24,595 nt of DNA, taken from positions 301 to 24,895 of the forward strand of contig DBVU01000024.1 in NCBI GenBank assembly GCA_002308195.1, read 5' to 3'. Of the stretch, positions 5,914 through 23,125 are shown in pieces. The notes beneath the pieces were generated by a model. The model was not told where the DNA came from and ran no database searches. It saw only the letters and a list, made by a program, of their open reading frames with translations. The first letter of the stretch is position 1. Each line of letters opens with the position of its first letter. Source of the DNA: Bacteroidales bacterium UBA1256. GTDB lineage: Bacteria > Bacteroidota > Bacteroidia > Bacteroidales > Paludibacteraceae. The position numbers were made by a program, and so were the translations under genes.

Positions 5914-6641
5914 ACAAAGGATACGCTTTAGTGACAGGCGGTAGTCGCGGAATAGGCCGTGCTATCGCAGAACGATTAGCCAAAGACGGTTATACTGTGG
6001 TAATCAATTATCGCAGTAACGAAGCCGCAGCCCAGGAGACCAAGAATGCGATTGAGCAAGCGGGTGGCCAAGTAGAACTACTGCCATTTGATGTGGCAGA
6101 TGGCAAGGCCATTGAAGCAGCTCTTAGTTCGTGGGAATCTTCGCACGAAGGTGCGCATTTTGATGTATTGGTCAACAATGCAGGTATTCGTCGTGATGGA
6201 CTGATGGTATTTATGGGTGAAGAAGACTGGAGCGATGTGCTACAGACTACGACGAATGCGTTCTACTACATCACACATCGCGTGCTGGGCGGCATGCTAC
6301 GCGCGCGCAACGGGCGCATCGTGAATATCACGTCCATTTCAGGTGTATCCGGTCTACCGGGACAAGTGAATTATTCTGCAGCCAAGGCAGCGCTGATAGG
6401 TGCAACGAAAGCGTTGAGCAAAGAAGTAGCCGCTCGCAAAGTGACTGTCAATGCGGTAGCACCAGGATTTATTAAGACAGACATGACCGCCGATTTGGAT
6501 GAAGGCGAACTGAAGAAAACGATTCCGGCCGGCAGATTTGGCCAACCGGAAGAGGTAGCCGCGTTGGTTAGTTTCCTCTGTTCGGATGAAGCCGCATACA
6601 TAACCGGTCAAGTAATTAATATAGCAGGAGGCATGGCATAA
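5910..6641 (+). CDS. 3-oxoacyl-ACP reductase, FabG-like ketoreductase of the polyene pathway
   Basis: The 243-aa short-chain dehydrogenase reduces 3-oxoacyl-ACP to 3-hydroxyacyl-ACP with NADPH. The Rossmann motif is TGGSRGIG (9-16), the NNAG motif is at about 89-92, and the catalytic residues are S142 in NITSISG, Y155 and K159 in YSAAK. The C-terminus ends with the usual ITGQVINIAGGMA. Length and motifs are standard FabG. The start overlaps the ammonia-lyase stop (ATGA) and its own stop overlaps the next ATG (TAATG), so it is embedded in the operon. In aryl polyene clusters a FabG-like enzyme acts after every ketosynthase round, which fits. Confidence 0.93.
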   Translation: MNKGYALVTGGSRGIGRAIAERLAKDGYTVVINYRSNEAAAQETKNAIEQAGGQVELLPFDVADGKAIEAALSSWESSHEGAHFDVLVNNAGIRRDGLMVFMGEEDWSDVLQTTTNAFYYITHRVLGGMLRARNGRIVNITSISGVSGLPGQVNYSAAKAALIGATKALSKEVAARKVTVNAVAPGFIKTDMTADLDEGELKKTIPAGRFGQPEEVAALVSFLCSDEAAYITGQVINIAGGMA

Positions 6642-9068: not shown

Positions 9069-9311
9069 ATGGAAAAAGAACAATTAATCGAAAAAGTAAA
9101 CAATCTCCTCATCGAAGAGTTTGAGATTGATGCGGAGAAACTAACTCCGACAGCATTGCTGAAAAATGATTTGGAAATCGATTCTCTCGATTTTGTGGAC
9201 ATCGTCGTTCTCGTTGACCGCGAGTTCGGCTTTAAGCCCAAAGCAGAAGAGCTGAAGACCGTAAAAACGCTCGAAGATTTCTATCAATACATCGCAGCAC
9301 ACATCGCATAA
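9069..9311 (+). CDS. Acyl carrier protein 1
   Basis: An 80-aa acidic four-helix carrier protein. The phosphopantetheine attachment site is S39 in DLEIDSLDFVDIV, followed by the typical helix II sequence. It would hold the growing polyene or the coumaroyl starter in the cytoplasm. A holo-ACP synthase/Sfp-type transferase is needed and is not seen in the window. It differs clearly from the second carrier protein at 12177, so the two may have distinct jobs (starter loading versus elongation), but sequence alone does not say which does which. Confidence 0.95.
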   Translation: MEKEQLIEKVNNLLIEEFEIDAEKLTPTALLKNDLEIDSLDFVDIVVLVDREFGFKPKAEELKTVKTLEDFYQYIAAHIA

Positions 9312-9318
9312 GTAAATT

Positions 9319-10197
9319 ATGGCACAACAGTGGTCCGGACAAACAGGTGGTACACATGGCATGCAGAAAGCGCTTGTCAGTATTTTCCGCTATGTGGATG
9401 TTCGGGTCATGTATGCTGTGATGAACTTGTGGCTGATATGGTATATCATCGTTCGTCCTTCCACCACGCGTGCCACCTATCGTTATCATCGTCGTTGGGG
9501 ACGCAGTCGTTGGGCATCCATCTGGGCAACATATCGTAGTTTCTACACCTTTGGAGAAGCCATTGTGGACCGATTTGCCGTTTACGCCGGCCAGCACTTT
9601 GACTACCAAGTAGATAACAGCGAACGCTTCTATGGTCGCGCCAATCAACCGGAAGGATTTATCCTACTCTTCTCGCATGTTGGCAATAGCGAAATGGCTG
9701 CTTACAGTCTCAGCACACCGGACAAAAGGATGAATATCTTGGCGTTTGGCGGAGAATCGGAAGTAGTGATGGAACAGCGTGCCAAAGTACTGGCGAAGAA
9801 CAACATGGGAATGATAACCGTTTTTCCTAACGACATGAGTCATATCTATCGTATCAATGAGATATTACAGGCCGGTGAAGTACTGGCTATTGCCGGCGAT
9901 AGAAAAATGGCTCAAAACGACAAGACGATTGGCTGCACCATTCTTGGCGGCGAAGCACAACTGCCGGCCGGACCATTCGTGCTGAGCGCATCGTTGAGAC
10001 GACCTGTCGTTCTATGCTTTGTCATCAAAGAGAAATGGAACAAATACCATATCTTCACCGAGCAATTGCAGGTGGACACTACTCTACCTCGACATGAGAG
10101 ACCGAAAGATTTGGCACGGCAGTATGCTGAACATATCGAGCGAATGACACGTCAATATCCTTACCAGTGGTTTAATTTCTACGATTTCTGGGCGTGA
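9319..10197 (+). CDS. LpxL/HtrB-like lysophospholipid (lipid A-type) acyltransferase
   Basis: A 292-aa membrane-associated acyltransferase of the LpxL/LpxM/HtrB family. There is one N-terminal hydrophobic segment (about 30-46). The catalytic HX4E motif is H120-E125 in FSHVGNSEM, followed by typical segments around GMITVFPNDM and LAIAGDRKM, and LPAGPFVLSASLRRPV. Family members transfer acyl chains from ACP to a glycolipid at the cytoplasmic face of the inner membrane. Such enzymes are regular members of aryl polyene and flexirubin clusters, where they probably transfer the polyene acyl chain from ACP to a lipid acceptor. The gene lies 7 nt after the carrier protein gene and overlaps the next gene by 4 nt (GTGA). 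Confidence 0.9.
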   Translation: MAQQWSGQTGGTHGMQKALVSIFRYVDVRVMYAVMNLWLIWYIIVRPSTTRATYRYHRRWGRSRWASIWATYRSFYTFGEAIVDRFAVYAGQHFDYQVDNSERFYGRANQPEGFILLFSHVGNSEMAAYSLSTPDKRMNILAFGGESEVVMEQRAKVLAKNNMGMITVFPNDMSHIYRINEILQAGEVLAIAGDRKMAQNDKTIGCTILGGEAQLPAGPFVLSASLRRPVVLCFVIKEKWNKYHIFTEQLQVDTTLPRHERPKDLARQYAEHIERMTRQYPYQWFNFYDFWA

Positions 10198-10613
10198 GTA
10201 CAAAACTTGACATATTGGAGTATATTCCGCAAAGACCACCGTTCGTATTTGTGGAGGAATTGCTATATGCTTCGCCAGAGCAAGTGCGTACCGCGTACTG
10301 CATCCGAGAAGATAATCCGCTGGTAATCAATGGTATACTACCCTTAGCAGGACTCATGGAGCACGCTGCGCAGACATGTGCTGTGCGCGCGGGTTGGGTT
10401 CAACACGAGCAAAAACAGGCCATTCGCATTGGTTATATCGGAGCCATCAAACAGATGCAGGCTACGCGTCTGCCACATGTAGGTGAACGATTGGAGACCG
10501 AAGCAAAAGTAGTGCAAGAAGTGGCAAATATCAGTATGCTGGATTGCAACACTTATGTAGGCAACGAACTGATTTGCCAAACGACCATCAAACTAGCATT
10601 AGTAGACGAATGA
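10194..10613 (+). CDS. Hotdog-fold dehydratase subunit, ApeP-like (COG4706 type), without catalytic His
   Basis: A 139-aa single hotdog-domain protein starting with GTG, where GTGA overlaps the acyltransferase stop. It opens with LDILEYIPQRPPFVFVEEL, typical of 3-hydroxyacyl-ACP dehydratase-like proteins, and has GLMEHAAQTCAV (53-64), which aligns with the FabZ helix carrying the catalytic Glu; E56 is retained. The FabZ segment HFPGxPxxPG that supplies the catalytic His is replaced by NPLVINGILPLAG. It cannot form the normal His/Glu dyad alone. The other hotdog protein of the operon (14952) has the His but a Gln in place of the Glu, so the two probably form one heterodimeric dehydratase, as known for ApeI/ApeP. 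Confidence 0.85.
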   Translation: MSTKLDILEYIPQRPPFVFVEELLYASPEQVRTAYCIREDNPLVINGILPLAGLMEHAAQTCAVRAGWVQHEQKQAIRIGYIGAIKQMQATRLPHVGERLETEAKVVQEVANISMLDCNTYVGNELICQTTIKLALVDE

Positions 10614-11647
10614 TTAGTTGCATAGGACATAATATCATATCGCCATTGGCTGTTGGATCAACCGCCAATTTTAAGGCCATTCTGTCCGGCAAGACTGCAG
10701 CTCGTCTATACACCGACCGTTTTGAGTCGGTGGAACCATTCTATGCATCGCTGTTTGAGACTCCTCAGTCGTTTGTGCCACTGTGTATCCAAAGCGCAGA
10801 ACAAGCCATTGCAGAGGCACAAATAGATGCATCGGACAAGTCAGTCATATTTATCCTAAGCACCACCAAAGGAGATAATCTCGATTTGCTGACACCCGCT
10901 GAATCCATTGCCCGCCATTTTGGCAATCCGAATCCGCCGATTGTGGTGAGCAACGCTTGCACATCGGGCGTGTGCGCTCAAGTAACGGCTATGCGCCTGC
11001 TAGATGCACAGATGTACGAAACAGCCATTGTGATTGGATGCGACATACAGAGCAGATTCATCGTAAGTGGTTTCCAAGCATTCAAAGCCCTATCTCCGGA
11101 AGCATGCCGACCGTTTGATGCCGAGCGCAAAGGTCTAAACCTGGGAGAAGCCGCAGCCACTATCATCTGGACCAGCAAACGGAACACTAAATGGCATTTG
11201 ACGGCAGGAAGTATTCACAACGATGCGAATCATCTGTCGGCTCCAAGTCGCACAGGCGAAGGCGCACACTTGTGCTTGCAGGATGTGCTCGCGAAAAGTG
11301 ACATTCAGCAACTAGCTTTTGCCGGAGTACATGGTACAGCTACGCTCTATAACGATGAGATGGAATCGATAGCGCTGCACCGTGCAGATTTAGACACACT
11401 TCCTATCTGCGCGCTGAAAGGCTATTATGGTCATACAATGGGAGCGGCAGGTGTAGTAGAAACCATCATTGGCATGCTATGCGTGGAGGAACAGATTCTT
11501 CCTGCGGCCAAAGGATACAACTCATGCGGAACAAGCTATCCGCTCTGTATCTCCAACGAGAAACAGGCTATTCAGGGCAAACAATTCATAAAAATGCTAT
11601 CCGGCTTCGGTGGCACTAATGCAGCCATACTACTGACATGCGAGTAA
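10610..11647 (+). CDS. Short beta-ketoacyl synthase (second ketosynthase, ApeC-like partner candidate)
   Basis: A 345-aa ketosynthase of the thiolase fold, shorter than FabF (about 410 aa) because the N-terminal region before the Cys is abbreviated. The active-site residues are all there: C117 in VSNACTSGVCA, H241 in GVHGTATLYNDE, K270 and H275 in LKGYYGHTMGAAG, plus the FGGTNAA loop near the C-terminus. Start: the ATG at 10610 overlaps the dehydratase stop (ATGA); the reading frame is open upstream to 10544 but that extension lies within the dehydratase gene. In aryl polyene systems a second ketosynthase-like protein pairs with the elongating one; whether this is an initiating ketosynthase or a partner subunit is uncertain. 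Confidence 0.88.
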   Translation: MISCIGHNIISPLAVGSTANFKAILSGKTAARLYTDRFESVEPFYASLFETPQSFVPLCIQSAEQAIAEAQIDASDKSVIFILSTTKGDNLDLLTPAESIARHFGNPNPPIVVSNACTSGVCAQVTAMRLLDAQMYETAIVIGCDIQSRFIVSGFQAFKALSPEACRPFDAERKGLNLGEAAATIIWTSKRNTKWHLTAGSIHNDANHLSAPSRTGEGAHLCLQDVLAKSDIQQLAFAGVHGTATLYNDEMESIALHRADLDTLPICALKGYYGHTMGAAGVVETIIGMLCVEEQILPAAKGYNSCGTSYPLCISNEKQAIQGKQFIKMLSGFGGTNAAILLTCE

Positions 11648-12189
11648 CGCACGAAATAGAAATAACTCCTACCTCGGTTCGTTTGGACGGACAAGAACTG
11701 GCGGTAACAGAACGCGGAGAGAAACTACTCAGCGAATTGTACCGTAGCCGCATATCCGACTATCCACGGTTCTACAAGATGGACACACTAAGCCGATTGG
11801 GATTTGTGGCAAGCGAACTACTGCTGCAAGCGGAAAAAGCAACGGGAGACGAACTTCCGACCAATAGAGCCGTAATTTTCGCCAACAGAAGTGCAAGCAT
11901 CAAGAATGACACAGATTTCATACAAACAATAGCACCAAGCAATTACTATCCTGCCCCGGCACTGTTTGTTTATACCCTACCCAATATCGTGACAGCGGAA
12001 ATTGCCATCCGCAATCACTATACAGCAGAGACTGCTTTTTATATCTTGGCAGAGGCTGAGCAACTATTACCAATCGTGAAGACTACGCTACAACAACCTT
12101 CTGCACCACAATCGGCTCTGGTTGGTTGGTGCGAATGTAGCGCCGCTGATACGTATTATGCAAAAATACAAATTATATGGAACAATTAA
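11638..12189 (+). CDS. Half-size ketosynthase-like protein lacking the catalytic Cys
   Basis: A 183-aa protein resembling only the N-terminal half of a beta-ketoacyl synthase. Helical segment TLSRLGFVASELLL (50-63) is followed by a strand RAVIFANRSASI (77-88), and the nucleophile-elbow region is YPAPALFVYTLPNIVTAEIAIR (104-125). Here Asn stands where Cys would be, and no catalytic His motifs follow. It ends where the second KS half would begin. The same order of elements is seen in the C-terminal domain of the ketosynthase at 12431. It probably acts as a non-catalytic partner of a ketosynthase, perhaps a chain-length or scaffold subunit. It overlaps the preceding gene by 10 nt and the next by 13 nt. 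Confidence 0.78.
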   Translation: MRVTHEIEITPTSVRLDGQELAVTERGEKLLSELYRSRISDYPRFYKMDTLSRLGFVASELLLQAEKATGDELPTNRAVIFANRSASIKNDTDFIQTIAPSNYYPAPALFVYTLPNIVTAEIAIRNHYTAETAFYILAEAEQLLPIVKTTLQQPSAPQSALVGWCECSAADTYYAKIQIIWNN

Positions 12190-12434
12190 TCGAAACACTT
12201 AAAGCACAAATTATTGAAGCACTGAACTTCGAAGAAATGACACCCGCAGACATCGACACCGATGCACCTCTGTTTGGAGAGGGCCTTGGATTGGATTCGA
12301 TCGATGCACTTGAACTAATCATGTTACTTGACCGTGAGTACGGCATCAAGTTGGCTGACCCGAAAGCCGGCAAAGCCATCTTCCGCTCCGTACGTACTAT
12401 GGCCGAATATATCCAAGCTAATCGCACCAAGTGA
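12177..12434 (+). CDS. Acyl carrier protein 2
   Basis: An 85-aa carrier protein with S41 in GLGLDSIDALELIMLL as the phosphopantetheine site, preceded by the PLFGEGLGLDS pattern common to carrier proteins of type II polyketide and aryl polyene systems. It lies between the half-ketosynthase (13-nt overlap) and the next ketosynthase (4-nt GTGA overlap), suggesting it serves as the elongation carrier for those enzymes. The DSID context, in place of DSLD in ACP 1, marks the two as non-redundant subfamilies. Confidence 0.95.
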   Translation: MEQLIETLKAQIIEALNFEEMTPADIDTDAPLFGEGLGLDSIDALELIMLLDREYGIKLADPKAGKAIFRSVRTMAEYIQANRTK

Positions 12435-14155
12435 GAATCGTTGTTACCGGCATAGGAGTTGTTAGCGCTATTGGTATCAATTGCGAAGAGACACGGCAAG
12501 CTCTGCTGAATGAGCAATCGGGAATAGGCCCGATGCGCTATCTGCGGAGTGTGCACCAACTACCAGTAGGCGAAGTCAAGTACACCAACGAACAACTGCG
12601 CTCGTTGGCCGGCATAGGCGATCAACCTATGCCCCGCTCGTCATTGTTAGGATTGATTGCTGCTCAGGAAGCCTTGAAACAAGCCAACTTGCAGCCAAGC
12701 AGCGACATGGCCTTTATTTCAGGAACGACAGTGGGTGGTATGGACCTAACCGAGCAGTACTGGAACGAGTATCATGAGGGTAGACATACCGAGACGATTG
12801 CGCTACATGAAGCAGGAGAATCTACACTAGCTATCGCACGCGAACTAGGTTCATTCGGATTCATCACAACGCCTTCCACCGCCTGCTCTTCTGCTCTCAA
12901 TTCCATCATGGTAGGAGCAGATATGCTGCGTACCGGTCAGATCAAACGTGCGTTGGTAGGAGGATGCGAGAGTTTGAGCCGTTTCCATTTCAATGGATTC
13001 AGGACATTGATGATTCTTGACAGTGAACCATGCCGCCCGTTTGATTCCACACGTGCCGGTTTGAATCTGGGAGAAGGTGCCGGTTATTTGGTTATAGAGA
13101 ACGAAGCCGATGCCCTGGCCCGTGGAGCACAGATTCTGGCTTATGTAGGCGGATATGCGAACACCTGCGATGCATTCCACCAAACGGCTTCGTCCGAAAA
13201 TGGCGAAGGTGCTTATCTGGCAATGAGCAAGGCCATCCAAATGGCCAAACTGCAACCACAAGATATTGACTATATCAATGCACACGGAACCGCTACGCCC
13301 AATAATGATTTGAGTGAGTCGGCCGCGCTGATACGTCTGTTTGGTTCGCAGATGCCTGCTATCAGTAGCACCAAAGCATTTACAGGCCATACTACCTCGG
13401 CTAGCGGTGGACTGGAAGCTGCTTTCTGCGTCATGGCTTTGCGCGAAGGGTTTGTTCCCGCCAACTTGCGTTGGGCACACACGGCAGAAGGATTGATCCA
13501 GCCAACTCCGCATACGCAGAAGAAGCCATTGCACCATGTACTCTGCAACGCTTTTGGTTTTGGCGGAAATGAATCTTCATTAGTACTTTGCGACCATGCC
13601 GTAGAATTGTCCGTAGCGAATATTCAACAGAACAAAGTGCAACAGGTGGTTAGCGTAGAACAAATCGCTCCGGAGGAAATTACATCGTTGGTATCGGCTG
13701 CAGAAGCACGCCGAATGACCGTTCAGACACGTCAATTGGTTGCGGTGGCTCGCAAAGCATTGCGTCTAGCTGGAATAGAAATGCCGGATGCTATTCTCTG
13801 TGCTACACAATGGGGCTGCATGCAGCAGTCCATGCGTTTCCTGCTAGATATGCTACAAACCAACGAGCAAGAACTCAAACCTACGCCGTTCATCCAATCA
13901 ACGCACAATACGATTGCGTCGATGATTGCTATTCAGACAGGTAATCATGGTTATAATATCACGTATGCTCAGGGGGTAGAATCGTATGCAAGTGCAGTGC
14001 AAGACGTTACCAACCAAATGGCCCTAGGACGTATTCTAACAGCTCTAATTCTTGAGTTCGATGAATCGGTGCCGGAATGGGATGAGGTGCTCGAGCAGAT
14101 TAACAGTAAGACACAAAACATAGCACGAGCTCACGTGTTTAACTATCAATCATAG
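12431..14155 (+). CDS. Beta-ketoacyl-ACP synthase with fused C-terminal half-ketosynthase domain
   Basis: A 574-aa protein starting with GTG (GTGA overlap with ACP 2). Residues 1 to about 390 are a complete ketosynthase: C152 in PSTACSSALNS, H285 in NAHGTATPNND, K315 and H320 in TKAFTGHTTSASGG, and AFGFGGNESS near 374. Residues about 425-545 form an extra domain that looks like the N-terminal half of another ketosynthase: RQLVAVARKALRLAG, then DAILCATQWGCM, then PFIQSTHNTIASMIAIQTG with Asn at the nucleophile position. This resembles the PF13723 (Ketoacyl-synt_2) type of domain and matches the free-standing protein at 11638. The fused domain may act as a built-in partner subunit. A gap of 2 nt separates it from the next gene. 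Confidence 0.88.
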   Translation: MRIVVTGIGVVSAIGINCEETRQALLNEQSGIGPMRYLRSVHQLPVGEVKYTNEQLRSLAGIGDQPMPRSSLLGLIAAQEALKQANLQPSSDMAFISGTTVGGMDLTEQYWNEYHEGRHTETIALHEAGESTLAIARELGSFGFITTPSTACSSALNSIMVGADMLRTGQIKRALVGGCESLSRFHFNGFRTLMILDSEPCRPFDSTRAGLNLGEGAGYLVIENEADALARGAQILAYVGGYANTCDAFHQTASSENGEGAYLAMSKAIQMAKLQPQDIDYINAHGTATPNNDLSESAALIRLFGSQMPAISSTKAFTGHTTSASGGLEAAFCVMALREGFVPANLRWAHTAEGLIQPTPHTQKKPLHHVLCNAFGFGGNESSLVLCDHAVELSVANIQQNKVQQVVSVEQIAPEEITSLVSAAEARRMTVQTRQLVAVARKALRLAGIEMPDAILCATQWGCMQQSMRFLLDMLQTNEQELKPTPFIQSTHNTIASMIAIQTGNHGYNITYAQGVESYASAVQDVTNQMALGRILTALILEFDESVPEWDEVLEQINSKTQNIARAHVFNYQS

Positions 14156-14157
14156 GT

Positions 14158-14517
14158 ATGAATACTCTACGTTTGCTGCTACTGGCTATCATACAAAGTC
14201 TCTTCCTCTGCGGAGGACAACTATTCATGAAACTAGCGCTCAAAGCGATGGGCAAAGCTTCGTGGACATGGTCGTTTATTGCCTCGCAGCTAACCAACTG
14301 GTGGTGGTTGGCATGTGGCGTATCGTTTACCATTGCCGGACTAATGTGGATGTATATCCTCAAACACTGGTCGTTCTCACAAGCATACCCACTCAGCAGT
14401 ATTGCATATGTGTTTGGTATGATAGCCGCAATGTTGGTTTTTCACGAACATATCGCATGGACGCAGTGGGTTGGAATATTGTTTATCATGGCGGGATGCT
14501 ATTTAGTTGTTAATTAA
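14158..14517 (+). CDS. Small four-helix permease of the SMR/EamA (ArnE/ArnF-like) type
   Basis: A 119-aa protein with four predicted membrane helices (about 2-20, 43-65, 72-91, 98-117). It contains GGQLFMKLAL, which corresponds to the first-helix region of EmrE/EamA half-transporters, and a PLSSIAYVFGMIAAM stretch typical of ArnE/ArnF-like undecaprenyl-phosphate-sugar flippases. It may dimerise to move a lipid-linked intermediate across the inner membrane. The same operon encodes a GT2 domain of the dolichyl-phosphate sugar synthase style, so a lipid-linked sugar is a possible cargo; this is inference. Confidence 0.82.
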   Translation: MNTLRLLLLAIIQSLFLCGGQLFMKLALKAMGKASWTWSFIASQLTNWWWLACGVSFTIAGLMWMYILKHWSFSQAYPLSSIAYVFGMIAAMLVFHEHIAWTQWVGILFIMAGCYLVVN

Positions 14518-14518
14518 G

Positions 14519-14968
14519 ATGCTAGCATTGATTTTAAGTCTCATAATCTCCTTGGAAGCAGACTTCGTACAAACCAAACAGGTTGCTATGCTTTCCGAAC
14601 CGCAAGTGGCTAAGGGGCACCTCACTTATCGTGCCCCGGAGTACATACGTTGGGAGTATCTCAAACCAGACCAATATGTATGGATGCTGGATGGGAAGCA
14701 ATCGAACGTCAATCCACAGATACAACGCTTGCTACAGATGATTATGCAATCTGTATCAGGAGCGAATCTGCAGCCAAGCCAGGATTTTGACGTACAGCAA
14801 TCAGGCAATGTATATACGCTCACACCGCGTAAACGCGAATACAAACATATGTTCCGCAGCATCGTTATCACACTCGATCCGGCCACTCAGATTGCTCAGA
14901 AAGTACAATTGAATGAGACGAACGGAAACGATACGCTAATCGAATTTCACAATGTTGTTACGAAATAA
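14519..14968 (+). CDS. LolA-like periplasmic lipid carrier protein
   Basis: A protein of about 149 aa with a short hydrophobic leader and a LolA-type N-terminus, ADFVQTKQVAMLSEP, followed by GHLTYRAPEYIRWEY, the standard second-strand signature of outer-membrane lipoprotein carrier proteins (family PF03548/PF19574). LolA-like proteins are recurring members of aryl polyene clusters and are thought to carry the lipidic pigment through the periplasm to the outer membrane. The start is uncertain: ATG at 14519 follows the upstream stop by 1 nt; an in-frame TTG at 14507 would add MLIK and give the signal peptide a positive charge. Its 3' end overlaps the next gene by 17 nt. Confidence 0.85.
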   Translation: MLALILSLIISLEADFVQTKQVAMLSEPQVAKGHLTYRAPEYIRWEYLKPDQYVWMLDGKQSNVNPQIQRLLQMIMQSVSGANLQPSQDFDVQQSGNVYTLTPRKREYKHMFRSIVITLDPATQIAQKVQLNETNGNDTLIEFHNVVTK

Positions 14969-15302
14969 TCTATATACAGTAGCTGAAGCAGGAAGTGAAT
15001 ATCGTGTTTGCTTCAATGCGGCCCACCCTATCTTTGCCGGCCATTTTCCGGGGCATCCTATTGTTCCGGGAGCGTGCTTGGTCCAGATTGCGGAGGAATT
15101 GCTAGCACTACATATCGGAAAGAACGTACAACTGCAATCCATACGCAATCTGAAGTTCCGCAAAGCGATTACGCCGGACATGGAGGTCAACTTCGCACTC
15201 ACCCTACACGACGAAAATAATTACACAATAGATATACACGACGAGAACAATCCATATGCACAATTCTCAGCAACATATATGTGCCCTAATTCCAACCTAT
15301 AA
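14952..15302 (+). CDS. Hotdog-fold 3-hydroxyacyl-ACP dehydratase subunit, ApeI/FabZ-like, with His but without Glu
   Basis: A 116-aa FabZ-like protein with the conserved loop AHPIFAGHFPGHPIVPG (24-40), in which H31 is the catalytic histidine. In FabZ the catalytic Glu sits 14 residues later in a VLIIEAMAQ-type helix; here that position is Q45 in ACLVQIAEELL. It therefore complements the dehydratase-like protein at 10194, which has the Glu (E56) but not the His. The likely role is dehydration of 3-hydroxyacyl-ACP to the conjugated enoyl-ACP during polyene growth. Its 3' end overlaps the following fusion gene by 47 nt in another frame. Confidence 0.87.
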   Translation: MLLRNNLYTVAEAGSEYRVCFNAAHPIFAGHFPGHPIVPGACLVQIAEELLALHIGKNVQLQSIRNLKFRKAITPDMEVNFALTLHDENNYTIDIHDENNPYAQFSATYMCPNSNL

Positions 15303-17745
15303 CAACGCAGGAACCATTGTCGATGTAGTGAAACGCGTACATGATTTTGTACGCGATATCATTGTGGTGGTGGATGGTAGTACAGACGATACGCTTCGTT
15401 TGCTAGGTGAGTTGGAGTTTCCTATCACCATTGTCACGCACGAGCGCAATCGCGGTAAGGGCGCAGCACTCAAAACTGGCTTTCGCAAAGCGCTAGACAT
15501 GGGATTTGACTATGCCGTCACACTCGATGGAGATGGTCAACACTACGCGGAAGATATACCGTTGCTAATTCAAGCGTTGGATCTGCATCCTAATGCGCTC
15601 ATTGTTGGTAGCCGTCATTTCACTGACGAAAATATGCCGGGCAAAAGTAAGTTTGCCAATCGGTTCTCCAATTTCTGGTTCCGCCTGCAAACTACTGTCA
15701 ATCTGCCGGATACGCAGACCGGAATGCGCATCTATCCGCTACACAGGTTACATGGACTGTCCATCCTGACCAGTCGTTACGAAGCCGAATTGGAATTGCT
15801 GGTTTTTGCTGCTTGGCACAATGTTCCGCTCATCCCGGTACCTATTCGCGTATACTATCCGCCCAAAGAGGAACGCGTCAGCCATTTCCGTCCGGCACGT
15901 GATTTTACGCGAATTAGTATCCTCAACTGCTTCCTATGTCTAGGCGCCCTCTTCTTTGGGTATATTAATATGTGGTGGAGAACCATCTATGCCTTCTTCT
16001 GGTTTGGATCTACCATGTTGCTGGTCGTTTCGACGCTTTCGCCAATCTATTTCATGCTATTTGGCAAAGGTGCGAAAAGTCGTGCACGCTACCACCGCAT
16101 CGTACAGCGTTTTGCTCAACACTACCAGTGGGCCATCAACGGACTACGTGTACATGTTCACAATCCGCAGAATATTGAGGTTGGCGGACAACCATCCATC
16201 ATCATTTCCAACCATCAGTCGTTTATTGATGTGATGTCTATTTTGGCACTTAGTCCCAAAATTGCTGTGATGGTAAAAGATTACATTTGGAAAAATCCTA
16301 TCTATTTCGTCCTCTGCCGTTTGGCCGATTTCTTCCCCATCGATTGGGACGAGCAACGCAAACTGGAACAAGTTCGTCGTCTAACCGATGAAGGCTATTC
16401 GGTATTGGTATTCCCCGAAGGTACTCGTTCTTATACCGGTGAAATAGGTCGTTTCCATCGCGGAGCGTTCTACTATGCAGAACAACTGCACCTGCCTATT
16501 CAGCCTCTCCTAATCGAAGGTATGATAGACCATATCGGCAAACGTCAATTTATGATGCGCCCTAACGATGTCGAACTGTCCGTACTTCCTACTTTGAATG
16601 CTGATGATGCGTCCATGGGCCGTAACTACAAACGTCGCGCAAAATCAATGGAGTATTATTATAGTTCTCTCTTGCATACACACCACCAGCCCGTTGGTAT
16701 CCTTGGCGCAGGTGTAGGCGGACTCTTTACCGGCGCATTGCTGGCTAAAGAGGGCTATCCGGTTACAGTCTTGGAACAGATGCCTGTATACGGTGGCGGA
16801 CTCTATTCGTTTGAACGCGATGGCGAGACTTGGCAAACGGGACTGCACTTCCTCTCCGGAATGCAGGCTGTTTGGCAAACTCTGGAAGAATTAGGTATCT
16901 CATTGCCTGTCGAACCCACCACTCTCGACCATGTACCGGCTGACTTGATTGGAGAAAAAGAATGGGAAAAATCGGCCAAAGGTGTATATCGTATCATCGG
17001 TGGCTCGCAACAATTGGCAGACCAACTGGCTATGTATATCAGCCGCCACGGAGGACGTGTGCTAACTGGCCAATGCGTCACGAATATAACGATGGATGGC
17101 GATACCTTTGTGGTCAAAACGAAGACGAATACATTCCGTTTTGAGCAGATTATCAACAGTTTACATCCAAAACAGTTGCTCTCTTTGACTTCCCTGCCCA
17201 TCTACCGTCCTGCAACGATTAAACGCATCGAACAAACACCGGAGACCTTCGGAACATTCAAACTGTATATTCGTCTGAAACCGGAGACGCTGGCCTTTGA
17301 CAGCGTGACGCACTACCTGCCGAAGCAACGACTCCTGGTGCTGACCCCTCCGACATCCGAGAACCAGCAGTGGGCACGAACGATAGAAACAGTGATGCCG
17401 CTTGACTATGCAGAATTGGCGCCATGGCATTCGGACAGAAAAAAAGATTATGCCGCCTACGAAGCATACAAACAGCGCAAAGCGGAAGAAGTACTGGTGC
17501 ATGTGCGCAAACTCTATCCGACTATAGACCAATGTATTGCCGATATATTCAGCGCCACATCGCTCACCTTCCGTGACGATTACCGCACGCCGGAAGGCGC
17601 TATGTTCGGGCTCAGCGAACCTGTTGGTTCGGTGGCTACGCGTATTCCGGGCTTCTACATGACCGGGCAGAATATATTCCTACGCGGTATATGCGGTACT
17701 ATTATGACATCTATTCAAACTGTTCAAACCATTTTGCGCCAATGA
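15256..17745 (+). CDS. Three-domain fusion: GT2 glycosyltransferase - PlsC acyltransferase - FAD-dependent oxidoreductase
   Basis: An 829-aa protein. Residues 8-230 are a family 2 glycosyltransferase of the dolichyl-phosphate sugar synthase style (CALIPTYNNAGT, VVVDGSTDDT, metal-binding DGDGQH at 91-96). Residues about 240-270 contain a membrane segment. Residues about 280-470 are a PlsC-like acyltransferase: H320-D325 in NHQSFID (HX4D) and FPEGTR at 386-391. Residues about 478-829 are an FAD-dependent oxidoreductase of the phytoene desaturase/retinol saturase style: GAGVGG (484-489), VTVLEQ, GGGLYSF, and a C-terminal FYMTGQNIFLRGICGTIM FAD-binding segment. GT2-acyltransferase fusions occur in other aryl polyene clusters; the third domain is the striking addition. 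The start at 15256 is required to keep the first GT2 strand. It probably glycosylates and acylates the lipid-anchored pigment and oxidises or reduces it. Confidence 0.9.
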   Translation: MHNSQQHICALIPTYNNAGTIVDVVKRVHDFVRDIIVVVDGSTDDTLRLLGELEFPITIVTHERNRGKGAALKTGFRKALDMGFDYAVTLDGDGQHYAEDIPLLIQALDLHPNALIVGSRHFTDENMPGKSKFANRFSNFWFRLQTTVNLPDTQTGMRIYPLHRLHGLSILTSRYEAELELLVFAAWHNVPLIPVPIRVYYPPKEERVSHFRPARDFTRISILNCFLCLGALFFGYINMWWRTIYAFFWFGSTMLLVVSTLSPIYFMLFGKGAKSRARYHRIVQRFAQHYQWAINGLRVHVHNPQNIEVGGQPSIIISNHQSFIDVMSILALSPKIAVMVKDYIWKNPIYFVLCRLADFFPIDWDEQRKLEQVRRLTDEGYSVLVFPEGTRSYTGEIGRFHRGAFYYAEQLHLPIQPLLIEGMIDHIGKRQFMMRPNDVELSVLPTLNADDASMGRNYKRRAKSMEYYYSSLLHTHHQPVGILGAGVGGLFTGALLAKEGYPVTVLEQMPVYGGGLYSFERDGETWQTGLHFLSGMQAVWQTLEELGISLPVEPTTLDHVPADLIGEKEWEKSAKGVYRIIGGSQQLADQLAMYISRHGGRVLTGQCVTNITMDGDTFVVKTKTNTFRFEQIINSLHPKQLLSLTSLPIYRPATIKRIEQTPETFGTFKLYIRLKPETLAFDSVTHYLPKQRLLVLTPPTSENQQWARTIETVMPLDYAELAPWHSDRKKDYAAYEAYKQRKAEEVLVHVRKLYPTIDQCIADIFSATSLTFRDDYRTPEGAMFGLSEPVGSVATRIPGFYMTGQNIFLRGICGTIMTSIQTVQTILRQ

Positions 17746-18593
17746 GATTCCAGGGGTTGATATTTTTGTTGCTTCTCTGCAGTTGTTTGCAGGCAAAGAC
17801 ATTGCCCGGCACTATCAAAGCACCTAACCGCTATAAGGTGTCGCTTACGCCGTATCTGGCCGATAGCGCCAACAATACCGGCATCGGTGTGGTCGTTTGT
17901 CCCGGAGGCAGTTATAGTTGGCTGGATATGAAGGTAGAAGGCATCGGCGTGGCTGAATGGTTGCAACAAAACGGCATCAATGCGTTTGTATTGCAGTACC
18001 GCGTGGCTAATGTGAGTGCGTATATTCTCGGCTATCGTGTGCTAGGTATAGGAAATAAATATCCAAATATGCTTCGTGATGTCGAATGGGCGCTTGAGCA
18101 GGTTTACGGTATGGCCGATTCGCTTCATGTAGATACAACGCGTATTGGCGTCATGGGCTTCTCTGCCGGCGGTCACCTGACGATGCTGAGCCATACGCAC
18201 AATACCACTGTGTATAGGCCGAAATGGCTTTGCCCTGTCTATCCCGTAGTCACTTTCTCCGACCAGCGCTATGTGCACAAGCGCAGCCGTCGTGCGGCTC
18301 TGGGCGTATGGCGCCAATGGAATCACACCCTGCAAGATTCGCTCTCTATCGAGCAACATATATCTGCCGATTGCCCGCCTGTTTTTCTTATCAACTGCGT
18401 GGACGATCCGATAGTTAAATACCAGAACTCCGAACTGTTGGACTCGGCTCTCACTGCCGAAAATGTTCCCCATCGTTACGTGCAATACCTCACCGGTGGG
18501 CATGGTTTTGGTGCCTCTGAGACCAAAGGAACCGACGAGTGTCATCAATGGAAAAAAGAATTTCTACAATGGATATCGAATTTGAATCAATAG
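17742..18593 (+). CDS. Alpha/beta hydrolase, acetyl-esterase/BD-FAE-like, exported lipoprotein candidate
   Basis: A 283-aa protein starting at the ATGA overlap with the fusion gene. The N-terminus MRFQGLIFLLLLCSC has a signal sequence; L12-C13-S14-C15 is a possible lipobox, otherwise cleavage after LQA is possible. The mature part is a carbohydrate-esterase-like alpha/beta hydrolase: oxyanion region VVCPGGSYSW, nucleophile S141 in MGFSAGGH, an Asp in NCVDDPIVKYQNS, and the His in GGHGFG. Relatives deacetylate xylan-type sugars. Inside a pigment operon it may instead trim or transfer an ester of the polyene in the periplasm or at the outer membrane. Its actual substrate cannot be predicted. 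It overlaps the downstream ligase gene. Confidence 0.85.
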   Translation: MRFQGLIFLLLLCSCLQAKTLPGTIKAPNRYKVSLTPYLADSANNTGIGVVVCPGGSYSWLDMKVEGIGVAEWLQQNGINAFVLQYRVANVSAYILGYRVLGIGNKYPNMLRDVEWALEQVYGMADSLHVDTTRIGVMGFSAGGHLTMLSHTHNTTVYRPKWLCPVYPVVTFSDQRYVHKRSRRAALGVWRQWNHTLQDSLSIEQHISADCPPVFLINCVDDPIVKYQNSELLDSALTAENVPHRYVQYLTGGHGFGASETKGTDECHQWKKEFLQWISNLNQ

Positions 18594-19858
18594 AGCGCAT
18601 TCGCGACTACCAGGAAGAACTGCTCCGCAAACAGATCAGCTATTTGGCTGCTCATTCGCCCTATTACCGGCGTATGTTTGCTGACCAGCATATCGATCCT
18701 TCCTCTATCCGTACGATAGACGACCTGCAGCGACTGCCGTTCACCGAGAAGAAAGACCTGCAACTCCACAACGACGATTTTCTCTGCGTTGACCGCAGCG
18801 AGATTATCGACTATATCACTACGTCCGGCACGCTGGGCGACCCTGTACTCTTTGGTTGTACCGACCATGATCTGGAGCGACTGGCCTACAACGAGCACAA
18901 ATCATTTGCCTGTGCCGGCCTGAAGAAAGGTGATATTCTGCAGTTGATGACTACGCTCGACAAGCGATTCATGGCCGGTTTGGCCTATTGGATGGGCATC
19001 CGTCATATGGGAGCAGGTATTATCCGCGTGGGTAACGGCAATCCCGAACTGCAATGGGACACTATTCGCCGACTCCACCCGACCGCTATCATGTGCGTTC
19101 CGTCCTTCATCTTGCGCCTGATAGAGTATGCCGAGCAGAACAATATCGATTATCGTCATAGTTCGATTCGCAAGATCATAGGCATAGGCGAAGGACTGCG
19201 TGACCAACAGTTCCATCTCAATCTACTCGGTCAACGCATCCACGACAAATGGCCGGAAGTGGAACTCTACGCCACCTATTCGTCCACCGAGATGTCTGCC
19301 ACTTTCTCCGAGTGCGAGCACAGTTGCGGAGGCCATGTCCATCCGGAACTCATCATCGTGGAGATCATCGGTGACGACGACAAGCCTGTGGCCGATGGTC
19401 AACCGGGAGAGATCGTCATCACGACGCTGGGCGTAGAGGGTATGCCGCTACTGCGTTTCCGTACCGGCGATATTGCTACTAAAATAACTGAACCGTGCGC
19501 GTGCGGGCGCAATAGTTACCGACTCACGCCGCTCATCGGGCGTAAACACAACATGATTAAGCTGAAAGGTACTACTATCTACCCGCCTGCCATCAATGAT
19601 GTACTGGATAATGTCGATTTTGTGGGCAATTATGTGGTAGTGGTACGTATGTCCGAGGCCGGCACAGACGAGGTGCTGGTGCGTGTCAGCATTCGACCTT
19701 CCATCACGCCTGACGAAGCCATCAAGACGCTCAAGGACCATTTCCGCAGTCGTCTGCGTGTCACTCCTCTGATCGAGATCTTGCCGTTTGATGTCATTCA
19801 GCAAATCAATTTCCCGGCCAAGAGCCGCAAGCCAATTAAGTTTATTGACGAACGATGA
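18569..19858 (+). CDS. PaaK-like acyl-CoA/acyl-ACP ligase (activation of the aryl starter acid)
   Basis: An adenylate-forming enzyme of about 429 aa, phenylacetate-CoA-ligase family. Seen in order: YQEELLRKQISYLAAHSPYYRR N-terminal segment typical of PaaK, the ATP loop TTSGTLGDP (84-92), YATYSSTEMS (A5), FRTGDIA (A7), a CACG pair with an upstream Cys that may bind zinc, and the C-terminal lid ending SRKPIKF. It probably adenylates 4-coumarate and passes it to a carrier protein or CoA, supplying the first unit of the polyene. Start choice: ATG 18569 gives the family-typical N-terminus; in-frame alternatives are ATG 18548 and GTG 18539, all overlapping the hydrolase gene. Its stop overlaps the exporter start (ATGA). 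Confidence 0.9.
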   Translation: MDIEFESIERIRDYQEELLRKQISYLAAHSPYYRRMFADQHIDPSSIRTIDDLQRLPFTEKKDLQLHNDDFLCVDRSEIIDYITTSGTLGDPVLFGCTDHDLERLAYNEHKSFACAGLKKGDILQLMTTLDKRFMAGLAYWMGIRHMGAGIIRVGNGNPELQWDTIRRLHPTAIMCVPSFILRLIEYAEQNNIDYRHSSIRKIIGIGEGLRDQQFHLNLLGQRIHDKWPEVELYATYSSTEMSATFSECEHSCGGHVHPELIIVEIIGDDDKPVADGQPGEIVITTLGVEGMPLLRFRTGDIATKITEPCACGRNSYRLTPLIGRKHNMIKLKGTTIYPPAINDVLDNVDFVGNYVVVVRMSEAGTDEVLVRVSIRPSITPDEAIKTLKDHFRSRLRVTPLIEILPFDVIQQINFPAKSRKPIKFIDER

Positions 19859-22050
19859 ATCAGTGGTTGCTCCATCTATATGACGTGTTGCAAACCCATC
19901 GCCGATGGCTGTGGATAGCGTTCGTTTGCGTGCTGCTGCCGCTGCTCGTTCTAGCGCTAACGCTGCGCTACAACGAGGATATCATGGATTTTCTCCCTAT
20001 TGCGGACGAAGACCGTGAGTCGATGGTTATCTACCAGCAGCAACAGTCGGCCAACCGATTGGTGCTCATCATCGAAGGCGACGACCCGGATCTGATATGT
20101 GATGCGATAGATAGTTGCGCAGATATAATCCCGGGATTGATTACCGAGGTCGATATCGACACTTATCTCGCGCGTCTACGTTACGTACATAGTCAGATGC
20201 CTTATTTCCTGACGGAAACCGACTACGCACGGCTCGATTCTCTGTTCTCGCCGGAAGCCATGCACGCAGCCTTGGATCGCGACAGACGCATCTTGTCTGC
20301 ACCAGGTACAGGTTTCCTTAGCCAAGCTATCCAGACCGACCCGTTGGGCCTGTTGCCGCTCTCTGTCGGCGCACGAGGCCAGTTCTCCGGAGCCGAAGCA
20401 CAAACGGCCTTTACCAGCTATGACGGATATATGATGACGGCTGATCAGCAGATGGGATTCTGTTTCTACGACACTCCCTACGGAGGCACCGAGACGCAGC
20501 AGAACGCCCGCCTCATCGATAGTCTGCAATCAGCCATCGACCATCTACAACCGCAATTCTCTTCGCTGCAGATGCGCTGGTTAGGCGCACCTGTGGTAGC
20601 AGTGGGCAACGCACGCCGCATCAAGATAGATACCGCTATGTGTATCGGCTTGTCGCTGGTGCTGATCATCGCTCTGTTGCTCTATGCTTTCCCGCGCAAG
20701 CGAGACATACTGCTCATTCTGCTTTCCATCTCGTTTGGCTGGCTCTTCGGTATGGCCGTCTTACGGCTCTATACGCCTACTATCAGCGCTATCGTGCTGG
20801 GTATCGGTTCTGTCTTAATTGGCATCGCGGTCAACTATCCATTGCATCTGCTCGTTCATCAGCGTTATACCACGTCGGTGCGCCAGACGCTCAGCGAAGT
20901 GCTCACACCGCTCGTGGTGGGCAATATCACCACTGTCGGAGCTTTTCTCACGCTCATTCCGCTCCACGCAGAAGCGCTACGTGACCTGGGTATTTTCGCC
21001 GCCTCTATGCTGGTAGGCACTATCCTATTCTGCGTACTGGTACTGCCACATCTGATGTCGGCCCGACCTACACCACTGCGAGAAATACACATACCCGCCG
21101 TCCAGACCAAACACTCTACATTCCATATTACTGCCATCGTGATGCTATTGCTGACCGTAGCGGCAGGCGCCTATCTGATGCTTTGCCCGCAAGAGCGCTT
21201 TGATAGCAACCTGAGTCATATCAACTACATGACGCCGCAACAGCGTGCCGATTTTGCCTATTTTGACTCCATTTCTAATCCTTCGTCTGCTGTGGGTCGT
21301 CCGACTTATTTAGCTCCTACTGCTCGTGAGGAACTGGAACATCGCGCGGAACTATGGCAAAACTACTGGCAGACTCATTCGGCTGACAGTGTCGCTATGC
21401 ATTTGCGTCACGAAGCGGAACAAGCAGGTTTCCGGCCCGATGTATTCGAACCCTTCTGCACTATGCTGACCAGTTGGCAACCCATGGCCGACATCAACAC
21501 TGAGACACTCGGCGAACTGTGGCCGGGACGCTTCGACAGCGCTACGCTCAATGCCCATTTAACAAAACAATTAAGCGACCATTTCGATTATATCGGCCTA
21601 TGCTGCAGCCTGATCGTGTTCCTTTTCCTTTGGCTCAGTTTCCGCAACTTGTGGCTGGCGCTCATCGCTTTTGTGCCTATGGCGCTCAGTTGGGTATGGA
21701 TACTCGCTATCATGCAACTGCTTGGTTTGCAGTTCAATATCGTCAACATCATCTTGGCTACATTCATTTTCGGTCAGGGTGACGACTATACTATCTTCGT
21801 GGTAGAAGGTTTGCTATATGAACATCGTTCGGGACGTCCTATGCTGCCGCAGTACCGCCAGTCCATTTTCCTCTCCGCCTTGATTATGTTGGTGGGCATT
21901 GGTATTCTGGTCCTGGCTGTTCATCCGGCAATGCATATGTTGGGAGCCGTTACGCTCATCGGCATGTGTACCGTAGTACTTATGGCGCTGACTATACCTA
22001 ATCTGCTCTTCCATTGGCTAGTACGCTGGTGCCCACGGTGGATCCAATAA
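19855..22050 (+). CDS. MMPL/RND-family exporter (aryl polyene/xanthomonadin exporter type)
   Basis: A 731-aa inner-membrane protein with the duplicated RND layout. There is one N-terminal helix (about 19-37), a large periplasmic loop (about 40-255) and a bundle of helices at about 260-400. A second half then follows with one helix (about 424-442), a periplasmic loop and a bundle to the C-terminus. Helix motifs include GIGSVLIGIAVNYPLHLLVH in the first half and IFGQGDDYTIFVVEGL (about 638-653) in the second half, where the charged DD may serve proton relay. Exporters of this MMPL type accompany nearly all aryl polyene clusters and are assumed to move the lipidic pigment out of the inner membrane to the LolA-like carrier. 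It overlaps the ligase gene by 4 nt. Confidence 0.9.
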   Translation: MNQWLLHLYDVLQTHRRWLWIAFVCVLLPLLVLALTLRYNEDIMDFLPIADEDRESMVIYQQQQSANRLVLIIEGDDPDLICDAIDSCADIIPGLITEVDIDTYLARLRYVHSQMPYFLTETDYARLDSLFSPEAMHAALDRDRRILSAPGTGFLSQAIQTDPLGLLPLSVGARGQFSGAEAQTAFTSYDGYMMTADQQMGFCFYDTPYGGTETQQNARLIDSLQSAIDHLQPQFSSLQMRWLGAPVVAVGNARRIKIDTAMCIGLSLVLIIALLLYAFPRKRDILLILLSISFGWLFGMAVLRLYTPTISAIVLGIGSVLIGIAVNYPLHLLVHQRYTTSVRQTLSEVLTPLVVGNITTVGAFLTLIPLHAEALRDLGIFAASMLVGTILFCVLVLPHLMSARPTPLREIHIPAVQTKHSTFHITAIVMLLLTVAAGAYLMLCPQERFDSNLSHINYMTPQQRADFAYFDSISNPSSAVGRPTYLAPTAREELEHRAELWQNYWQTHSADSVAMHLRHEAEQAGFRPDVFEPFCTMLTSWQPMADINTETLGELWPGRFDSATLNAHLTKQLSDHFDYIGLCCSLIVFLFLWLSFRNLWLALIAFVPMALSWVWILAIMQLLGLQFNIVNIILATFIFGQGDDYTIFVVEGLLYEHRSGRPMLPQYRQSIFLSALIMLVGIGILVLAVHPAMHMLGAVTLIGMCTVVLMALTIPNLLFHWLVRWCPRWIQ

Positions 22051-22065
22051 GAAAGGGACGCGCGT

Positions 22066-22131
22066 ATGATATGGATACTGATATTTACCTTAATCATTGC
22101 CTATGCCAGAAAGAATACAAGACAAAAATAG
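22066..22131 (+). CDS. Possible 21-aa single-pass membrane peptide
   Basis: An ATG at 22066, 15 nt after the exporter stop, opens a 21-codon frame giving MIWILIFTLIIAYARKNTRQ plus K. It is a clean hydrophobic helix followed by a strongly basic tail, the usual shape of small inner-membrane peptides. A purine-rich stretch (AAGAAAGGGA, 22049-22058) lies upstream. It overlaps the start of the acyltransferase gene in another frame by 29 nt, so it could also be a leader that couples translation of that gene, or chance. No homology is known to me. Confidence 0.35.
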   Translation: MIWILIFTLIIAYARKNTRQK

Positions 22132-23125
22132 GCTATATGCATTTCTTCGGCCGTACGTAGACTGGATGTTCCGTCATTCGTACCGCCACATGCGTTATAT
22201 CGGTAAGGAGAATATCCCTACCGATGGAGCCGTTATCTTTGCGCCGAACCATACCAACGCGCTATGCGATGCCATGGCTATTCTGGGTATCGACCGCTCG
22301 CGCAAGGTGTTCGTGGCTCGCGCCGATATTTTCCGCAAACCTCGTCAGGCCAAACTGTTGACTTGGCTCAAGATCATGCCTATCCGCCGCATGCGCGATG
22401 GCGTCGATGAAGTGCGGCACAACGATGAAACCATGGACCGAGCTGTAGAGACACTACATGATGGTGTTCCGTTCTGTATCCTGCCCGAAGGTACTCATCG
22501 ACCAATGCATTCGCTTCTTCCGCTGAACAAAGGCATTTTCCGTATTGCCTTGCGAGCTAACGATGAATTTGGTGCAGAGAAACCCATCTACATCCAACCG
22601 GTTGGATTGGAATATGGCGATTATTACCATCTTTGGAATGATCTGACGGTCAACATCGGCAAACCGCTCAATGTGACACAGTTTGTGCGTGAGCATAGCG
22701 ACCTGGAGCGGCCGCAACTGATTATGGCCTTGCGCGAAGAACTGACTCTGCGCATGCGTGAACAGATTTTATGGGTACCAGATGACGAACATTATGAGGA
22801 GAATTTTGCCAAACTGCAAGCTAATCCGCCTGCGCCATTCAATCATTTCCCTCGCCATCGCATGCCGCACTGGCTCCTCTTTATTATCCTAATACTCTTG
22901 TCGCCGCTGTTCCTCATCAGTCTGGCGCTCACTGTTCCGCTCTGGGTGGCCTGGTTGCTCATCCGATGGAAAGTCAAGGACCCGGCCTTCCACAATTCTG
23001 TACAATATGTATGGCAGGTGATTTGTATTCCACTCACGCTATTCATCACACTGCCATTCTGGATGTTCCTGCAGGAATATATGTATCAAGTACGCATCCT
23101 AAGACAATCTAGATCGAAAAAATAA
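22103..23125 (+). CDS. PlsC-like 1-acyl-glycerol-3-phosphate acyltransferase, Bacteroidota type
   Basis: A 340-aa membrane acyltransferase. The catalytic motif is APNHTNALCDAM, with H50 and D56 (an HX5D spacing, as I recall from the Bacteroidota NHxNALMD family, not the usual HX4D). LPEGTHRP corresponds to the glycerophosphate-binding EGTR block. Two hydrophobic segments near the C-terminus (about 254-280 and 300-320) anchor it. It would acylate lysophosphatidate or another lipid acceptor at the inner membrane. The ATG at 22103 was chosen over the upstream in-frame TTG (22097). It lies 52 nt after the exporter gene on the same strand, so it may be the last lipid-assembly gene of the operon or an independent phospholipid gene. 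Confidence 0.88.
   Translation: MPERIQDKNRLYAFLRPYVDWMFRHSYRHMRYIGKENIPTDGAVIFAPNHTNALCDAMAILGIDRSRKVFVARADIFRKPRQAKLLTWLKIMPIRRMRDGVDEVRHNDETMDRAVETLHDGVPFCILPEGTHRPMHSLLPLNKGIFRIALRANDEFGAEKPIYIQPVGLEYGDYYHLWNDLTVNIGKPLNVTQFVREHSDLERPQLIMALREELTLRMREQILWVPDDEHYEENFAKLQANPPAPFNHFPRHRMPHWLLFIILILLSPLFLISLALTVPLWVAWLLIRWKVKDPAFHNSVQYVWQVICIPLTLFITLPFWMFLQEYMYQVRILRQSRSKK

Follow-up and report, generated by a model that had tools for sequence, protein, structure and literature searches.

A glycosyltransferase, acyltransferase and FAD oxidoreductase joined in one protein, with a trimmed CrtI fold, in a flexirubin/aryl-polyene-type cluster of Bacteroidales

What would bring a glycosyltransferase, an acyltransferase and a flavin adenine dinucleotide (FAD) oxidoreductase together in a single polypeptide? 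The question is raised by one gene in a stretch of 24,595 nucleotides (hereafter the window) from Bacteroidales bacterium UBA1256 (contig DBVU01000024.1, positions 301 to 24,895 of the forward strand). In this gene, an open reading frame (ORF) of 829 codons runs unbroken from ATG to stop, and an earlier note, made from the letters of the window, had already read in it a family 2 glycosyltransferase (GT2), a PlsC-type acyltransferase and an FAD domain. That reading has been borne out. Pfam places PF00535 at residues 10-135 (77.9 bits, cut-off 23.3) and PF01553 at residues 298-420 (83.9 bits, cut-off 23), and finds in the FAD part both PF01593 (59.1 bits, cut-off 19.8) and PF13450 (residues 482-546; 43.1 bits, cut-off 21.9). 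The motifs lie where the note had put them: DGDGQH at 91-96, NHQSFID with H320 and D325, FPEGTR at 386-391, and GAGVGG at 484-489. Across 21 aligned relatives the GT2 columns D91, D93, Q95 and H96 are invariant, and the PlsC motif columns are invariant or almost so. The GT2 part matches dolichol-phosphate mannose synthase (5mlz) at 2.5e-8 and the PlsC part matches PlsC (5kym) at 3e-10; the hydrophobic residues between them, 213-293, presumably form a membrane anchor. The AlphaFold2 (AF2) model of the fusion has a mean predicted local distance difference test score (pLDDT) of 80.8. Foldseek and VIA searches with the whole protein return the FAD part only, and for GT2 and PlsC the fold is read from sequence alone. 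In fold and profile comparisons the FAD part finds its best matches among carotenoid desaturases and isomerases; its scores lie below the curated NCBIfam cut-offs for CrtD (89.7 vs 549.7 bits) and the CrtI family (46.1 vs 238.1 bits).

The same architecture recurs widely. In a protein database search with the fusion, the best 120 of 2369 matches were examined, query included, each a separate 90%-identity cluster. In every one of the 119 others the four Pfam families occur together in a single protein, with a length of 790-855 aa among the matches listed and 52-73% identity to the query, and 11 of them come from contigs longer than 100 kb. Such recurrence lies far beyond chance. It also excludes an assembly error, the outcome that would have overturned the earlier note: an assembly or frameshift artefact joining separate genes might be imagined, since the same parts are abutting or overlapping separate ORFs in Prevotella-type clusters, but the frame is unbroken, the domains are conserved across the joints and the listed relatives refute it, so that its probability is practically negligible. 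The two organism-named entries among the listed matches are both Paludibacteraceae. The full-length fusion is not universal either, being found in 10 of the 61 genomes of a genus-level sample and, in a family-level sample of 120 genomes, in G002 and G021. With about 960 aa the G021 protein is a long form, of which three more have been found (P0122-P0124). A literature search, which did not reach most subscription journals or any bioRxiv preprint, returned no title or abstract opening that describes a GT2-PlsC-FAD fusion. The protein is thus neither universal nor, within that reach, already described. It is a known aryl-polyene tailoring enzyme in a new domain variant, whose CrtI fold is unexpectedly trimmed.

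The arrangement of the same parts in relatives gives a first answer. A genome scan confirmed at least 591 stretches, from which the best 80 loci were kept for counting; their flanks reach at most 10 kb, so some FAD genes may sit beyond the examined stretch, as in Hoylesella loescheii (L047, G009), where the FAD gene is about 14 kb off. GT2-PlsC-FAD is one ORF in 10 of the 80 loci (one of them cut by a contig end), PlsC-FAD is fused in two, and GT2 and PlsC occur without FAD in the examined stretch in 28. The FAD oxidoreductase is a separate ORF in the other 40, directly behind GT2-PlsC in 38 and elsewhere within the cluster in L014 and L055; in 27 of these 40 loci two FAD genes stand in tandem. 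The two PlsC-FAD fusions (L020:3292-5484 and L078:2725-5064) lie between an LpxL-type acyltransferase and a chain-length factor (CLF), and their clusters hold, elsewhere, GT2-PlsC (L020) or a GT2-esterase fusion (L078). Among the 40, three FAD ORFs (L041:12836-15601, L053:11101-14067 and L071:11461-14091) have C-terminal extensions of about 370 aa that look alike; a Pfam scan of L071 alone identifies the extension as a PlsC domain, just above cut-off, giving the order FAD-PlsC, the reverse of the window's. The FAD enzyme is therefore joined to PlsC in several layouts, namely PlsC-FAD, FAD-PlsC, and short and longer GT2-PlsC-FAD. The linkage of the three activities proposed in the earlier note is supported because the FAD enzyme, where not fused, is encoded by its own gene in the cluster and has been joined to PlsC in more than one layout, and the presence in one protein of a gut bacterium's yellow-pigment cluster of three activities that relatives often split suggests that they serve the same membrane-bound product.

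A wider claim, that the fusion replaces all free FAD enzymes, was suggested by four fused genomes (G001-G004) without a free FAD at E<=1e-5. It is contradicted by four of the 10 fused genomes of the genus sample (G132, G138, G162 and G166), which have a free FAD elsewhere. Since all four of these free FADs lie in other ketosynthase clusters (L091, L089, L090 and L092), the replacement claim is narrowed to the pigment cluster. Other variants of the GT2-PlsC gene have also been observed. In L051 it is joined to an esterase, and in Prevotella histicola JCM 15637 (L077:9902-11452) its frame is split into stretches of 397 and 119 aa, while it is whole in the close relative P. jejuni (L064).

The FAD enzyme also keeps particular company. 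Of the 17 clusters of the tyrosine-ammonia-lyase type (16 loci plus the window), 11 have FAD and six do not; the ketosynthase KS1, the ketoreductase FlxB and the dehydratase DH2 occur in 10 of the former and in none of the latter (p 5.7e-4). For this count L088 was excluded, being the same contig stretch as L017, and the close relatives L064 and L077 were both kept; the FAD-less clusters L063 and L086 have less than 1.4 kb downstream, so genes there would be missed. The set offers three supported independent contrasts, of which 2.9 on average run in the same direction, a number that cannot reach significance. For DH2 over 80 rows (the window and the 79 loci that have 4 kb or more upstream and 1 kb or more downstream), presence is 45/51 with FAD vs 13/29 without (p 5.6e-5); of 11 contrasts, 4.4 on average have the same and 0.1 the opposite direction, with a median sign-test p of 0.125. 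Outside pigment clusters, eight free CrtI-type FAD genes of related genomes (L082, L083, L084 and L089-L093) were picked from a longer list that also included G140, G167, G173 and G175. A KS1-like ketosynthase stands alongside in 8/8 and an ORF resembling an acyl carrier protein (ACP) too in 6/8, and no GT2 match occurs in any of the eight fetched stretches. Judged by these co-occurrences, the FAD enzyme acts as a companion to a fatty-acid/polyketide module, and the various layouts in which it is joined to PlsC suggest that what it makes is passed on for acyl transfer. The L082 and L084 clusters also hold a phosphatidylserine-decarboxylase-like protein, scoring below cut-off.

These patterns bear on the earlier note's proposal that the polyene or its lipid anchor is oxidised or saturated while it is glycosylated and acylated. 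In that scheme, a finishing station, the FAD domain would oxidise, saturate or isomerise the finished aryl polyene itself, and no second acyl chain, while GT2 and PlsC mount it on a glycolipid. It draws on the position of FAD on the same polypeptide as the presumed anchoring enzyme, on its best matches, which act on conjugated polyenes, and on the place of the fusion gene at the export end of the cluster. However, within the tyrosine-ammonia-lyase-type clusters FAD follows KS1, FlxB and the dehydratase and not GT2-PlsC, which over a third of the 80 loci carry without it in the examined stretch; the eight genes outside pigment clusters accompany ketosynthases and no GT2; and the 18-gene ape table given for E. 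coli contains no FAD enzyme (PMC8253772). As worded, the proposal is not supported, and action on the finished polyene is considered unlikely.

The FAD domain itself holds a feature absent from the earlier note, which had taken all key motifs to be intact. Those that bind FAD are: G484, G486 and G489 are kept in 48/48 free and fused FAD sequences (chosen from the rows of the FAD tree plus later loci and P0122-P0124) and E507 in 47/48. The domain around them is not whole, since the short form has lost a 103-column block, together with smaller pieces, that free relatives keep in the alignment; of 133 such insert columns in all, the 16 short fused forms each fill only 0-15. In structural terms, what is gone is the six-helix membrane-binding pseudodomain that in CRTI lies between the FAD and substrate parts, with helices from 103 to 208, and that includes the proposed catalytic residues R148, D149 and R152 (as described in the portion of PMC3382138 used here). 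Against 4rep the fused domain can be aligned over 334 residues and a free FAD of the type called FAD2 over 457. CRTI (4dgk) is not among the 50 structure matches listed for the fused model but is listed for free FAD2. Such a loss, which removes the whole substrate-side bundle, could mark a shrinking, non-catalytic remnant on its way out, as in close relatives: L010 and L085 have no FAD, L086 has only a stub, and in the GT2 tree all three branch from within the group of fused relatives. Against this, the domain occurs in all 119 further protein clusters listed; 14 of its residues behind the deletion are unchanged in 48/48 sequences; its AF2 model is confident (pLDDT blocks 72-96, mostly about 90); and for the six nearest loci its identity (0.55-0.62) is as high as that of PlsC (0.51-0.60). 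A test of relaxed selection by the ratio of nonsynonymous to synonymous substitutions was dropped for saturation of synonymous sites (proportion of differences 0.66-0.92), and amino-acid identities alone were used for this reason. A remnant is a serious rival, though an improbable one.

The descent of the domain has been approached with two trees. The first, with all columns, leaves out the L057 FAD2, which is truncated, and pieces shorter than 390 residues, among which is a mis-cut ORF of L040. In this tree, the FAD1 and FAD2 types split with support 100/99, and 15 short fused FADs form one clade (100/100) on the FAD2 side. The GGGL signature is common to FAD2 and the fused form, FAD1 having GGCL. 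One of the two trees suggests that the short fused form descends from the FAD2 type. The long fused FADs (L081 and P0122-P0124) fall outside the short clade by starred branches and group with those of L014, L020, L078 and four other ketosynthase clusters (100/100), which favours two separate fusions. In the approximately unbiased (AU) test, a single origin gave p 0.037 with L081 as sole long form and the deleted columns kept; with those columns removed and three more long forms it was not rejected (p 0.161). As for losses, the FAD was most likely lost secondarily in L010, L085 and L086, as judged from the GT2 tree, a quick tree without bootstraps. In L086 (6340-8760), GT2-PlsC, an FAD-like stub of about 60 aa and an esterase share one 807-aa frame, and the stub is apparently an FAD domain in the course of loss. 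Genome G138 has two pigment-type clusters, L087 with a fused FAD and L017/L088 with GT2-PlsC alone.

The explanation that we prefer, tentatively and at slightly less than an even chance, is that the fusion is an ApeJ-type GT2-acyltransferase that has taken up at its C-terminus the CrtI/CrtD-fold FAD oxidoreductase of the cluster, which would act on a module-built acyl chain while tethered to PlsC. By analogy with ApeJ, for which these steps are themselves proposals, GT2 would add sugar to a membrane lipid and PlsC would esterify an acyl chain onto that glycolipid. The FAD domain would do what in Prevotella-type clusters falls to a free-standing FAD gene. Because the FAD enzyme appears to partner a fatty-acid/polyketide module and is joined to PlsC, we propose for it an oxygen-independent redox step or double-bond isomerisation on the chain from the KS1-FlxB-dehydratase module, before or at transfer, and the tether may let the modified chain pass straight to PlsC. 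The bundle might have become dispensable, the membrane contact then coming from GT2-PlsC.

Several observations weigh against this explanation. The short FAD lacks the segment that in CRTI holds the proposed catalytic residues, and its chemistry may therefore differ from that of CRTI. Since the bundle is retained in the long fused form, being tethered is not enough to make it dispensable, and the simple version of that idea suffers. With the deleted columns left out, the short clade (16 rows, 100/100) separates from both FAD types and could lie nearer to either. The FAD-less L010, L085 and L086 nest inside the window's own 12-row fused clade (Shimodaira-Hasegawa-like approximate likelihood-ratio support 99). 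L087, the exception among the tyrosine-ammonia-lyase-type clusters, has a fused FAD and no KS1, FlxB, DH1 or DH2 in its examined stretch, 1.4 kb of the contig lying outside it. Finally, over 57 long-flank rows the link between FAD and KS1/FlxB is weak (26/39 vs 7/18, p 0.08). A bolder reading, which seems rather unlikely, is that the short FAD is a CrtI-type enzyme still active without its lid: in place of the bundle and its catalytic segment it would use the membrane helices of GT2-PlsC and the acyl-binding surface there, and a composite active site would oxidise or isomerise the ACP-derived chain before its transfer to the glycolipid inside the protein.

The genes around the fusion (Table 1) agree with the pigment-cluster setting given in the earlier note. 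The flexirubin equivalogs FlxA, FlxB, FlxJ and FlxY all pass their NCBIfam cut-offs, the LolA-like carrier fails that of LolA2_flexi, and no match named for the dialkylresorcinol genes DarA/DarB was found among the 20 window proteins scanned against NCBIfam, where the existence of a Dar model was not checked. The cluster is of the flexirubin/aryl-polyene type, and the setting of an ApeJ-type enzyme is present: ketosynthase/CLF, ACPs, dehydratases, LolA-like carrier and MMPL exporter. The exporter and the second PlsC are adjacent, separate genes in the window, but are fused into a protein of about 1,170-1,230 aa in 11 of the 80 loci (L016, L021, L033, L034, L042, L043, L064, L065, L075, L077 and L080), and PF03176 and PF01553 have been confirmed with Pfam in that of L064 (16928-20455).

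Table 1. Features of the window, with positions counted from its first nucleotide.
Feature	Position	Strand	Basis
FabI-like enoyl-ACP reductase	3560..4405	+	NCBIfam FabI family, below cut-offs
FlxA tyrosine ammonia-lyase	4402..5913	+	NF053541 826.9 bits, cut-off 700
FlxB ketoreductase	5910..6641	+	NF053542 384.9 bits, cut-off 340
Ketosynthase KS1	6641..7867	+	FabB/FabF-type models, below equivalog cut-offs
FlxJ family methyltransferase	7962..9062	+	NF053543 563.5 bits, cut-off 560 (narrow pass)
Acyl carrier protein 1	9069..9311	+	ORF; name from sequence alone, no family scan
LpxL-type acyltransferase	9319..10197	+	PF03279
FabZ-like dehydratase DH1	10194..10613	+	Weak FabZ match; no Pfam match
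Ketosynthase/chain-length-factor-like KS2	10544..11647	+	PRK09185 subfamily match, below cut-off
Acyl carrier protein 2	12177..12434	+	PRK09184 above cut-off
Ketosynthase KS3	12431..14155	+	FabF-type models, below cut-offs
LolA-like carrier	14507..14968	+	PF03548; LolA2_flexi 94 bits, below cut-off 125
FabA/FabZ-like dehydratase DH2, overlaps fusion start	14952..15302	+	PF07977
GT2-PlsC-FAD fusion	15256..17745	+	829 aa plus stop; ORF list, Pfam, AF2 model
GT2 domain, dolichol-phosphate-mannose-synthase-like, DxD 91-93	15256..15891 (residues 1-212)	+	PF00535
Long hydrophobic helices between GT2 and PlsC, presumed membrane anchor	15892..16134 (residues 213-293)	+	AF2 helices 213-269, 273-293
PlsC acyltransferase domain, NHX4D and FPEGTR	16138..16590 (residues 295-445)	+	PF01553
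CrtI/CrtD-fold FAD oxidoreductase domain, short form	16681..17742 (residues 476-829)	+	PF01593, PF13450
Deletion junction	16942..16980 (about residues 563-575)	+	Free relatives about 100 residues longer here (beta hairpin and helical bundle)
BD-FAE type esterase, overlaps fusion end	17691..18593	+	PF20434
FlxY 4-coumarate-CoA-ligase-like enzyme	18539..19858	+	NF053551 689 bits, cut-off 520
MMPL/RND-type exporter	19855..22050	+	HpnN / HAE3 models, below cut-offs
Second PlsC-type acyltransferase	22097..23125	+	PF01553

The joining of FAD to an acyltransferase, together with the co-occurring ketosynthase, ketoreductase and dehydratase set, points to an unassigned redox step in the Bacteroidales branch of the pathway, and the named Prevotella strains with the same enzymes as separate genes make this step testable. 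The FAD domain without its bundle also serves as a natural experiment in how much of the CrtI fold is required. If a lid-less enzyme with a composite site is indeed what was formed, tethering of FAD to PlsC would be a recurring design in the lipid-pigment clusters of Bacteroidales.

One of the closest known systems is ApeJ (c1194) of the aryl-polyene cluster of E. coli CFT073, a glycosyltransferase/acyltransferase in one protein (PMC8253772), which confirms that, as the earlier note stated, such fusions are known in aryl polyene clusters. The window has the same order, a GT2 with DxD followed by a PlsC with NHX4D and FPEGTR, and the neighbours are also alike: LolA-like carrier, dehydratases, ketosynthases, RND exporter and second acyltransferase (PMC8253772). 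Unlike the fusion, ApeJ is presented in the portion of that source compared here without a named FAD part. The comparison with ApeJ is one of domain order and gene neighbours. The same source mentions that a lipid structure has been reported for Xenorhabdus doucetiae (PMC8253772). Another relative is the flx cluster of Chitinophaga pinensis (flxA-flxY; PMC3992019), with which the window shares the FlxA, FlxB, FlxJ and FlxY models. There, acyltransferase, LolA, glycosyltransferase and exporter are given apart (flxP-flxU), and the account, its table S4 being outside the comparison, names no FAD oxidoreductase (PMC3992019). In Prevotella-type clusters, as in P. jejuni (L064) and P. amnii (L021), FAD1 and FAD2 belong to the same family as the fused domain and occupy the same position behind GT2-PlsC, but they are separate genes, mostly of about 500 aa, with the helical bundle present. 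With CrtI/CrtD-type oxidoreductases the fused domain shares PF01593 above gathering score and the N-terminal GxGxxG FAD motif; it differs from the CRTI phytoene desaturase (4dgk) and the carotenoid desaturase 4rep by the absence of the six-helix membrane-binding domain. Finally, in the ladderane-type clusters for type II fatty acid synthesis of anaerobes, CrtI-type FAD oxidoreductases adjoin divergent ketosynthases, as they do here; in the parts of that description compared, they are separate genes, no GT2-PlsC fusion is mentioned and the product pathway is unproven there too (PMC2649909).

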